Below are positions 23,208-60,036 of a stretch of DNA of 60,284 bases, one piece after another. Both the position numbers and the translations under genes were made by a program. The DNA lies in NCBI GenBank assembly GCA_021797825.1, contig JAJZZA010000001.1, positions 106,579 to 166,862 of the forward strand, in the 5' to 3' direction. The notes under the pieces are model-generated. The model was not told the origin of the DNA. It saw nothing but the letters and a program-made list of their open reading frames with translations, and made no database searches. Origin of the DNA: Bacillota bacterium (GTDB lineage Bacteria; Bacillota; Sulfobacillia; Sulfobacillales; Sulfobacillaceae). Position 1 is the first letter of the stretch; every line of letters starts with the position of its first letter.

Positions 23208-23705
23208 GACAAACTACCGGCCGGACGGTTGTGCCCGGCAGGATATGGCCAGGGGGGTGCCGGCTGGTCTCGGGCAGCCGGCAGGGTACCGGCGGGGGCG
23301 CGCCAAGCCGGTGCCATGACAGGAACGGGAAGTTCCGCCGCCTTTTTGCATCCATCCGTGCATTTCCAACCGGGTCCAAACCCATCCGGCCTCGACCAGA
23401 CTCTTGGCGTTGAACCGCCCCGCCTTCAATGGCGGAATTTCTGGGAACCACCGTGGCGGTGGCACGGGTGGTGAGGCCCGGGGAGTTGTCCTCCGGATAC
23501 GCTGCCGCTTACCTCGCCAGACATAGGCGGGGTTCAACCCAACTGCGCCTGAACGTTTCCTTCAGGGAACGGGACGGCGATAGGTGATTCGTTGGGGAGC
23601 CAACAATTCCCCGGAGCGAATCCCCCAGGCATCCCGGTGGTGAGGATCTTCACCGCGTCAGCCCCATCCCGCTGGCGGACACGGGCGCGACGTGTGCGCT
23701 TCCAT
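23208..23705. other. Non-coding region upstream of the omegaRNA-like segment
   Basis: About 500 bp with no intact gene. In an intact IS605-type element this is where the tnpB gene would lie relative to the downstream structured segment, but I see only broken frames without zinc-ribbon or RuvC motifs. The region has several short inverted repeats and is GC-rich. Confidence 0.45.
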
Positions 23706-23871
23706 GATCGAAAAGGCACCGTTTACGGCAGACCCCTGAATTCATTCATGGGGTCAGTGGTGCCTTCCTCTTGCGCGCTCGACCGTTCGTCCCCGGAAGG
23801 GGATGCGCGAAAGAGGAAAACGTGTTCCTGGAGTGGATGCCCCTAGCTTTAGCTATGGGGAGGATGTCCAC
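23706..23871 (+). ncRNA. omegaRNA-like structured segment / IS200-IS605 right end, copy 1
   Basis: The segment folds into four stems: AGGCACC (23714-23720) with GGTGCCT (23759-23765); inside it GACCCC (23731-23736) with GGGGTC (23750-23755); CCTCTT (23767-23772) with AAGAGG (23811-23816); and a final GTGGA-CCCC/GGGG-TCCAC stem at 23833-23871 with loop TAGCTTTAGCTA. The last hairpin and its GGATGTCCAC end are typical of the right end of IS605-family elements, where the TnpB guide RNA (omegaRNA) terminates and the next ~16-20 nt act as guide. Near-identical copies occur at 59.8-60.0 kb. No intact tnpB is adjacent. Assignment as omegaRNA is inference from architecture. Confidence 0.6.
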
Positions 23872-24545
23872 TTTGACGAAGGCCATAGCGTGCGAGGTTG
23901 TGCGCCAAATGGGTTGCAAGCGCCCAAATTCCAACCCCCCGACAGCTTGGTTGGTCCGCGGGGTCGCCGGCGCCGTTTGGTGTGGGGGGCCCCCCGGAAA
24001 AGAGCGTGATTCCGTTGGCGGGCAACCCGCGATGCTTTGGTTGGTGTGCAAGGCCTGGCGCGTCACCCGTTCGACCTTTGGGCGGGGGCAGACGCTTGAC
24101 ATCCGTCCCTATGTTATCCACCATATCCCATATGGCACCAGCGACGCCACCGGATGCAGTCCCAAGGCGCAATTGCCGGCCGGGTATCGACCACTGCGCG
24201 AGCCGGGCCAGGCTTGGGCGGATTGCGGGCGCAAAGTCCCCTGCCGCTTCCGGTGCGGATGGTGCCGGTTTCGCATGTCACCTCCGACATGACCGGAAGT
24301 TAACGTGGCGATCAACGGACGGACTGTGGGCGGGACCAGTTTGACCGCGAGTGCTGGGGGTTCGGCAAGGAGTTCCTCACCCGTTCCCGCATAACAGCGG
24401 GAACGGCCCGGTGATTGGCTCGGGGAGCGCCCTCCCGTGGACCAGGTGCTCGGCGAGTGCGACCGGCCAACGGCCGTACGCCGCGATGACGCGACGACCC
24501 CCGGAAGTCCCTGCGGGGGATGAACTAGGAAGGTGGCGGCAAGTG
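23872..24545. other. Non-coding region with further element remains
   Basis: Follows copy 1 of the omegaRNA-like segment. The first ~20 nt (from TTTGACGAAGG) are the position a guide would occupy. The rest holds a TnpB zinc-ribbon remnant and two hairpins, listed separately; no intact gene. Confidence 0.5.
24195..24510 (+). pseudogene. Decayed TnpB C-terminal remnant with element-end hairpin
   Basis: One frame reads ADCGRKVP, then RCGWCRFRMS, a stop, and then NVAINGR, matching the TnpB zinc ribbon and the conserved residues after it except for a stop and frame damage. Downstream, CCGTTCCCGC (24381-24390) and GCGGGAACGG (24397-24406) form a perfect 10-bp hairpin, and CGACCCCCGGAAGTCC at 24495-24510 matches the remnant at 14070-14085. 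It is a separate element from the omegaRNA-like copy upstream, because the order is reversed relative to a normal tnpB-omegaRNA unit. Confidence 0.5.
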
Positions 24546-24561
24546 TGATCAGAAATGATCA
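24546..24561. promoter_or_regulatory. Possible operator: double TGATCA palindrome
   Basis: Two TGATCA palindromes separated by GAAA make a 16-bp inverted repeat about 40 bp before the PLP enzyme start. It may bind a dimeric regulator; no promoter elements are clear around it. Confidence 0.3.
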
Positions 24562-24601
24562 TGCCCGGATAGGTCCATCAGCACGGGAAAGGACGGAGGG
24601 C

Positions 24602-54473: not shown

Positions 54474-54505
54474 GATCGAAAAGGCACCGTTTACGACAAA
54501 CCCCC
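54474..54505 (+). repeat. Truncated 5' part of the omegaRNA-like repeat
   Basis: The first 22 bases are identical to 23706-23727 (ending GGCACCGTTTACG), then the sequence diverges after CCCCC. Only the 5' segment is present; the later stems and the right end are missing. Confidence 0.6.
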
Positions 54506-54585
54506 GGCTCTGTTCCCATTCTGGGAGCACATGGCCTTCGAAAGGGGGGGGGGATTTGCGACCGATGCCTCGGATTTTGGGGGGG

Positions 54586-54906
54586 TTAAGCCCCGGGGAT
54601 AAGCAGTTTGGCCAGAAGGCCCAGCGCCATGACGGCGATTAGTCCAATAGACCACGACCAGCGGCGTTCCATTCCTTCGAAGCGGCGATTCATTCCCTCG
54701 AAACGGTGTTCCGTTCCCTCAAAGCGGCGTTCTATTCCATCAAAGCGGCTGTCGACAGATTGCTTAAACTGTTTCAGGTCTTGCCGCACATCGGCGATTT
54801 GCGCCTTGAGATCGTCAAGCCGCTGTAAAATCAGCCAACTGACACTGACCTTATCATCAGGCCCGCTAAGGCCTTCGGGCTGTTTGAGATCGCCAGCCAT
54901 CGCCAT
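54586..54906 (-). CDS. Coiled-coil protein with C-terminal transmembrane helix
   Basis: A 106-residue protein. Residues about 30-85 form a coiled coil built partly from four 7-residue repeats of the type RFEGMER; residues 87-103 (WSIGLIAVMALGLLAKLL) form one transmembrane helix. The layout resembles phage XhlA-like and DUF-type membrane-tethered coiled coils. ATG 54906 has AAGGAAGGAG upstream, and an extended -10 promoter lies at 54929-54937. Function unknown. Confidence 0.65.
   Translation of the reverse strand: MAMAGDLKQPEGLSGPDDKVSVSWLILQRLDDLKAQIADVRQDLKQFKQSVDSRFDGIERRFEGTEHRFEGMNRRFEGMERRWSWSIGLIAVMALGLLAKLLIPGA
54661..54744. repeat. Four 21-bp tandem repeats coding for a heptad
   Basis: Four imperfect 21-bp units lie in the coiled-coil gene, each coding for one RFEG-type heptad. 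The repeat number could vary between strains by slippage. Confidence 0.75.
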
Positions 54907-54928
54907 CGCCGCTCCTTCCTTTCGTTTA

Positions 54929-54937
54929 AGTATATCA
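54929..54937 (-). promoter_or_regulatory. Extended -10 promoter for the coiled-coil gene
   Basis: On the minus strand TGATATACT (TGn plus TATACT) lies about 25 bp before the start of the coiled-coil gene. Confidence 0.45.
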
Positions 54938-54969
54938 CGCATATCACCCAAGACGCCCGACTGCCGGGC

Positions 54970-55006
54970 GGGGCGCAAGGAACAAGCGCAAGCGGCCTTG
55001 CGCCCC
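54970..55006. other. 11-bp perfect hairpin
   Basis: GGGGCGCAAGG (54970-54980) and CCTTGCGCCCC (54996-55006) form a stem with a 15-nt loop in a 450-bp gap that otherwise holds no supported gene. It has no T run on either side. Confidence 0.5.
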
Positions 55007-55356
55007 AAGAGGCGGGTCGGGCACACCGCCCCCAGGGAGATGCGGGCGATTGCGCGCCGTTGCCGGCGCCGATCATCATATGGCACCGGGCGCAAAAGAT
55101 AACCGGAGAGCCGTTTGGCTCTCCGGGGAATCCGAACCCTCAGCCGATTCCGTGGCACGGCCACAATCCGTTCCGTGCGTTCCGCTAACAAATAGAGTAC
55201 ACCCAACAATGCGGCAAAGTCAATCGACGCCGAACTGCCGCGCGACACCGCCCTCCCGATCGAGGGCGCACGAGGACCATTGCTCCTCATCCTTTTGATC
55301 AGCGAACGATTTTGGCCGTGAAACCATCGTGGCACATGAAGGCTTCTTGGGTCGTT

Positions 55357-56154: not shown

Positions 56155-56686
56155 TAAGACGCCGGCCAAGACGACAATCCACTGGGCAAACAATAGGATC
56201 CACACGAAAAAGGTCAGACGGGCAAGGGCTGAAATCTGAGGAGTTGGCAAACTCACTACAACCCCGATGATACCGAGCAACGTAGTGATCAAGACGCTCT
56301 GCGAAGAAGCAAACCACATCGTATCTACCATTAATGGGGTTTGGATCTCTTGGCCTTGGTGCGTCATCAAATACGGCGCGGTGGCAATCCCGCCGTCCGT
56401 TCGCGCTCTTCGAGCCCCGAAGGGGGATCGGGTTGGGGAGGGACCGCGCCTGCCTCCTTTCCGGGACGAGCGGCTTGGGTTAGGCGATACCCGTCGGAAA
56501 TCCGGTGCAGACTAATGCGCCCGTTAAGCATGCCGGATCGGAATCATCAAAATGGCGCCGTTTACGGCAGGCCCCTTGTTCCGTTTGCCCTACAATACGG
56601 GGCGAACTTTCGCAAAACGGGACGGCTCTCCTTGGAAAGGGGAGATGGGACGGAATGGGTGAGGATTAGCTATGAAGCGGAGTCTG
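56155..56686. other. Gap between M50-like gene and a membrane protein
   Basis: About 530 bp. The minus strand of 56370-56080 has a frame with two hydrophobic helices (LARLTFFVWILLFAQWIVVL) that may be a small membrane protein, but it lacks a ribosome site. A truncated copy of the omegaRNA-like 5' segment is at 56541-56577. Nothing else is recognised. Confidence 0.4.
56541..56577 (+). repeat. Second truncated 5' part of the omegaRNA-like repeat
   Basis: AATCATCAAAATGGCGCC followed by GTTTACGGCAGGCCCCTTG matches the first stem strand of the omegaRNA-like segments with a few changes. The rest of the element is absent. Confidence 0.5.
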
Positions 56687-59787: not shown

Positions 59788-59935
59788 GATCATCGAAGTG
59801 GCACCGTTTACGAGAGACCCCTTGCTTTAGCTATGGGGTCAGTGGTGCTTTCCTCTTGCGCGCTCGATGCGCGAAAGAGGAAAACGTGTTCCTGGAGTGG
59901 ATGCCCCTAGCTTTAGCTATGGGGAGGATGTCCAC
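59788..59935 (+). ncRNA. omegaRNA-like structured segment, copy 2
   Basis: Nearly the same architecture as 23706-23871: the GGCACC/GGTGC outer stem, an inner GACCCC/GGGGTC hairpin, the CCTCTT...AAGAGG hairpin (with a shorter loop) and the terminal GTGGA-CCCC/GGGG-TCCAC right-end hairpin. Immediately after its end a second partial copy begins. Conservation of stems with different loops suggests selection on structure. No tnpB gene is adjacent. Confidence 0.6.
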
Positions 59936-60036
59936 GGGGTCAGTGGTGCCTTCCTCTTGCGCGCTCGATGCGCGGAAGAGGAAAACGTGTTCCTGGAGTG
60001 GATGCCCCTAGCTTTAGCTATGGGGAGGATGTCCAC
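59835..60036 (+). repeat. Tandem duplication, two 101-bp units
   Basis: Units 59835-59935 and 59936-60036 are 101 bp each and differ at two positions (GCTTTCC/GCCTTCC and CGAAAG/CGGAAG). Each unit ends exactly at the right-end motif. Confidence 0.85.
59936..60036 (+). ncRNA. omegaRNA-like structured segment, copy 3 (partial)
   Basis: Starts at GGGGTCAGTGG, lacking the 5' outer stem strand, and continues to the same right-end hairpin and GATGTCCAC. It is a tandem duplicate of 59835-59935 with two substitutions. Its downstream "guide" position is the start of the broken transposase. Confidence 0.55.

Follow-up and report, generated by a model that had tools for sequence, protein, structure and literature searches.

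A gene-less element at 23.7 kb

The window, the whole 60,284-nucleotide stretch of Bacillota DNA analysed here, carries on its plus strand a 163-nt gene-less element of the IS200/IS605 type (a palindrome-associated transposable element, PATE) at positions 23709-23871. We placed its limits by the empty sites of sister copies described below: it begins with the C that follows the target and ends with GTCCAC. The host target, or left cleavage site (C_L), is TGAT at 23705-23708 (plus strand), outside the element; this assignment rests on covariation between the flank and the left guide (G_L), and on the sister empty sites, which keep C(G/A)AT. A covariance model of the element family, built from 18 copies, matched 23707-23871 with 135 bits (E 6e-36), a score to be read with the window copy's own contribution to the model in mind.

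The RNA fold of 23700-23875 reached -77.1 kcal/mol, compared with a shuffle mean of -58.4 (z -4.15), and only one of 200 shuffles was as stable. An earlier, sequence-only reading of this DNA had described four nested stems. The stems are real, but they are arranged as three adjacent modules, P1, P2, and P3, all on the plus strand. P1, the left end (23715-23764), is built of an outer stem, GGCACC (23715-23720)/GGTGCC (23759-23764), enclosing the guide and an inner CCCC..T..GGGG hairpin, and is supported by compensatory changes and by the same fold in the left ends of autonomous Y1 elements. Inside it, the left guide CAGA (23729-23732) pairs with TGAT by the IS608 rule (PMC5934647) and is followed by the IPL hairpin CCCC-TGAA-TTCA-TTCA-T(bulge)-GGGG (23733-23753), which is likewise supported by the fold, by compensatory change, and by autonomous left ends. 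P2 (23765-23818) follows as another left-end hairpin, TTCCTCTTGCGCGC...GCGCGAAAGAGGAA, which in the window copy contains an additional inner hairpin; P2 is predicted in most full copies and has a counterpart in autonomous left ends. The P2 loop reads TCRAT in many copies (e.g., W2 and L072), remaining constant while the stem diverges, and GTGA in others. Known TnpA binding does not account for this conserved loop. We also inspected by eye a pairing of the loop's TCGAT with the left junction ATCGA and discarded it, as covariation was absent.

The P3 module reads GTGGATG-CCCCTAGCTTTAGCTATGGGG-AGGATGTCCAC. Its right guide region, GTGGATG, lies at 23833-23839, and the pairing of GTGGA with TCCAC is near-invariant in the 18 aligned copies. 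The IPR hairpin CCCC-TAGC-TTTA-GCTA-T(bulge)-GGGG follows at 23840-23860 and is the same hairpin that is found at the right ends of tnpB elements. The right cleavage-site region (C_R), TCCAC at 23867-23871, is the element's end, as given by the conserved 3' limit and the empty sites. The CCCC..GGGG 3' hairpin noted in the sequence-only reading was confirmed as CCCC-TAGCTTTAGCTA-T-GGGG followed by AGGATGTCCAC (23840-23871). Imperfect subterminal hairpins with a bulged T are found at both ends of the element.

Copies in the genome and in its relatives

The near-identical repeats that had been reported at 59.8-60.0 kb are indeed present. A second full copy, 142 nt long, lies at 59794-59935 (plus strand; 136 bits with the covariance model) behind the host target TCAT (59790-59793, plus strand), and its left guide is GAGA, a covarying pair. 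The distal part of this copy (GGGGTCAG...GTCCAC) is duplicated in tandem at 59936-60036 (plus strand), a 101-nt partial repeat (98% identical) that adds a second right end, so that the copy's first right end is followed by the 3' arm of P1 from the element itself. Left-end fragments lie on the plus strand at 54477-54520 (after TGAT, with guide CAAA) and at 56548-56580 (after TCAT, with guide CAGG, which is off-code). Searching the own genome for all copies recovered one further full copy, on contig C71 (15345-15539), and several left-end fragments. A strict genome-wide pattern scan returned only seven stretches, every one a known family member.

Sequence searching detected the element in 18 of 61 relatives, and the covariance model matched in 35 of the 61, part of these matches being weak or limited to the right-end hairpin. 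Of the 34 genomes belonging to the same family, about 20, Sulfobacillus included (a Sulfobacillus benefaciens record is among the hosts), gave full-length matches (above about 36 bits); no genome outside that family did. The copies have sharp common limits, unrelated flanks, and no coding capacity. In the alignment of 18 copies, 93.8% of the stem cells are paired and 12 pairs have changed on both sides; stem covariation was 0.347, compared with 0.119 in shuffled and 0.03-0.12 in slid controls. At three loci (L097, L102, and L106) the element is reduced to 59 nt, keeping both termini but a single hairpin, probably through deletion between its two similar hairpins.

Target and guide change together

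The left guide of IS608, AAAG, lies just 5' of the left hairpin and recognises the left target TTAC: guide base 1 pairs with target base 2 and guide base 2 with target base 1, and C is preferred as the first base after the target (PMC5934647). The target/guide pairs of the element covary by this rule: TGAT/CAGA, CGAT/CGGA, TCAT/GAGA, and TTAT/AAAA. The autonomous elements of these bacteria, with TTAC/AAAG, follow the same rule. Both C_L/G_L pairs were obeyed in 45 of 70 non-redundant copies, compared with 23.5 expected when guides were permuted (p about 1e-5, uncorrected for kinship), and the target/guide switches fall in different genomes. Among the 33 copies with a flank other than TG.., 14 obey the code, where a fixed CAGA would give 0. 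The left code is broken in many old copies, as decay or misplaced limits would produce. At the right end, GTGGA:TCCAC pairs in almost all copies; this pairing is longer than that of IS608 and departs from its rule at position 4. A single gene-less family has switched its guide tetranucleotide and its insertion site together in at least four ways (TGAT, CGAT, TCAT, and TTAT), providing a natural experiment in target choice that agrees with the prediction from engineered IS608.

Empty sites and young copies

Two pairs of empty and occupied sites show how sister copies inserted. In the first, ..CCAAT is followed directly by TTCTGC in the empty locus of G014, whereas in G005 the element stands between ..CCGAT and TCCTGC, the common pattern being ..CC(G/A)AT followed by T(C/T)CTGCTTCG. 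In the second, the L251 copy in G030 splits a tnpB gene, lying between CGAT and TGCATGAACGCG; the site is uninterrupted in three related loci, where intact tnpB homologues read ..CGAT directly followed by TGCATGAACGCG (..CGAT, then TGCA..). Both insertions are 3' of a C(G/A)AT tetranucleotide, with no bases duplicated or lost. G030 also harbors four identical copies and several near-identical ones, with different flanks and each after CGAT. A search for an empty site of the window copy itself found none. This copy is presumably still mobile.

A left end fused to a right end

In relatives, the left ends of autonomous Y1 elements consist of the target TTAC followed by CAAA..GCGCC-GT-AAAG-CCCC..T..GGGG-ATATCA-GGCGC and a hairpin. 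They have the order of P1 and P2: about 12 unpaired nt, an outer stem, the guide, a bulged-T hairpin, a short linker, and then a second hairpin, the last also being present in IS608 (PMC5934647). Since these left ends fold like P1 and P2 of the element, a left-end DNA structure explains both modules. In line with the sequence-only reading, the 3' end is a right end of the IS200/IS605 type: positions 106-138 of the covariance model match about 100-140 nt downstream of TnpB zinc fingers in several relatives. The same model positions match at the ends of three contigs of the own genome, which carry a recurring IS605 right end, GAAT-CCCCCGGATTTATCCGTGGGG-AGAATGTCAA. On these contigs (C41, C56, and C107 of G000) the right ends are identical and the flanks differ, pointing to a multi-copy IS605 that breaks the assembly and is a candidate source of the machinery. 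Y1 genes are found in the own genome and in 23 of 35 genomes. Among the Y1 and tnpB loci searched, none was an autonomous element sharing both ends of the family (xxAT as target and GTCCAC as 3' limit).

In the resident tnpB elements, the stretch from tnpB to the right end holds a well-conserved omegaRNA scaffold. A scaffold profile, run against 96 orphan loci and the window, gave no match inside any element; its only matches were at L251 (beside the real tnpB split by the element), at L078, and in a remnant downstream of the window element (24374-24498, E 8e-10). With the scaffold missing, the element is a left end plus a right end only. That no tnpB is adjacent, as the sequence-only reading had it, is correct insofar as no intact tnpB adjoins; 0.5 kb downstream, however, lie the degenerate tail of a tnpB and the remains of an omegaRNA scaffold. 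This stretch (24276-24596) represents the degraded 3' part of another tnpB element, with a GGATAGGTCCATCAGCACGG end like the resident tnpBs, and is the region's true omegaRNA remnant. A tnpB origin for 23880-24270 was considered and rejected, as only the last 25 or so codons are recognisable, weakly (E 0.04), at 24276-24346. At L078 (G018, contig C55, 2179-2558), a family left end is followed by an omegaRNA scaffold (2424-2501) and then by a right end whose last bases are GTCAAG, with no recognisable tnpB between them; this locus may be a genuine orphan omegaRNA or what a deletion left behind.

We are highly confident that the window element is a non-autonomous IS200/IS605 element, a MITE of the PATE type in which a complete left end is fused to a right end. 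This rests on what the copies demonstrate (a family with defined ends, clean insertion at empty sites, recent copies, target/guide covariation, and a fold common to autonomous left ends), on the compensated stems, and on the presence of Y1 genes. The element is probably moved in trans by a TnpA encoded elsewhere, presumably one of the resident enzymes. In the mechanism that we propose, the Y1 (HUH) transposase TnpA, supplied by an IS605 element at another genomic site, would bind both hairpins as single-stranded DNA while CAGA, the left guide, base-pairs with TGAT in the flank; TnpA would then cut 3' of TGAT and after TCCAC, sealing the donor, and the excised circle would enter single-stranded DNA 3' of a further TGAT. 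The multiple copies, the target/guide covariation, and the empty sites bear out one half of the original proposal, a minimal non-autonomous mobile element. Its suggestion of mobilisation by TnpB fails, as TnpB is not a transposase and the anatomy of the ends is that of a Y1 TnpA substrate.

Alternative readings

The other half of that proposal was a free-standing omegaRNA that would serve, in trans, a TnpB from another locus, with the 16-20 nt or so after 23871 as its guide. TnpB genes are plentiful, the structure covaries, and the 3' hairpin is homologous to the right ends of tnpB elements, which is where the omegaRNA ends. We nevertheless regard this reading as very unlikely: the resident scaffold profile finds nothing inside the elements, P1 and P2 are already explained as left-end DNA structures, and the mobilising enzyme would be TnpA. 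In addition, a tnpB with the right end GTGGAWG-CCCC..GGGG-AGGAYGTCCAC was absent from the 35 genomes searched, which yielded only tnpBs ending in GTCAAC, and the tnpBs of the own genome mostly end differently from the element. The 20 nt or so after 23871 are simply host flank. A right-end hairpin alone is no evidence of a guide RNA, since fused IS605 ends resemble an orphan omegaRNA by eye. Just as improbable is a dual role, in which the element exploits TnpA to move and a resident TnpB to be retained, and is transcribed into a compact trans guide RNA of a new type; such a transcript would comprise the left end, P2, and the right end, with the host flank as its guide and the P2 loop as a putative binding site.

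An IscB omegaRNA (HEARO, RF02033) or another named RNA family is the least credible reading. Relatives commonly have IscB genes and HEARO RNAs, the two together being abundant in G002, G007, G012, and G014, but in these genomes the HEARO RNAs sit upstream of IscB and are absent from the elements, and no Rfam family reaches its gathering score. On the searches for RRXRR and with Rfam, a HEARO/IscB origin was rejected. The best sub-threshold match, to HgcC (E 0.18), was set aside and probably reflects the shared right-end hairpin. The own genome has IscB fragments only, one of them beside a left-end fragment on contig C65. A host regulatory RNA or terminator-like sequence unrelated to transposition, which the strong, stable structure in an intergenic gap might suggest, is hardly more plausible: the copies have sharp limits, unrelated flanks, and a target-site code, some are recent and near-identical, and one is inserted in a tnpB gene. 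For the family as a whole, the empty sites refute it; a domesticated role of one copy is possible.

Relation to known systems

Gene-less IS200/IS605 elements are known as PATEs, for example in Halanaerobium hydrogeniformans (PMC7290912). Like the window family, the Halanaerobium PATE is short and gene-less, has left- and right-end palindromes, and is believed to depend for its movement on a TnpA acting in trans (PMC7290912). It is, however, a single copy of about 271 nt that retains 58 nt of tnpB and a 160-nt right end (PMC7290912), whereas the window family lacks both tnpB and the omegaRNA scaffold, is multi-copy, and spans many genera and several target sites. With IS608 and ISDra2, which carry tnpA and tnpB, the element shares subterminal hairpins, pairing between guide tetranucleotide and left target, insertion 3' of the target, and C as its first base; unlike them, it is gene-less, uses TGAT, CGAT, TCAT, or TTAT rather than TTAC, and pairs GTGGA:TCCAC at the right rather than GAAT/TCAA. 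The resident IS605 elements of Sulfobacillus relatives (L181 and L184-L187) have the same left-end fold, second hairpin, and CCCC..CTTTAG..T..GGGG motif, but carry tnpA, insert after TTAC, and have the guide AAAG. In outline, the element also resembles the REP sequences moved by TnpA-REP, which are gene-less and palindromic and have a Y1 partner; these differ in usually being single hairpins with a tetranucleotide (PMC8266576). Elsewhere in the window, a separate set of four repeats with 21-nt spacing (54660-54749) lies within a minus-strand open reading frame (54586-55335).
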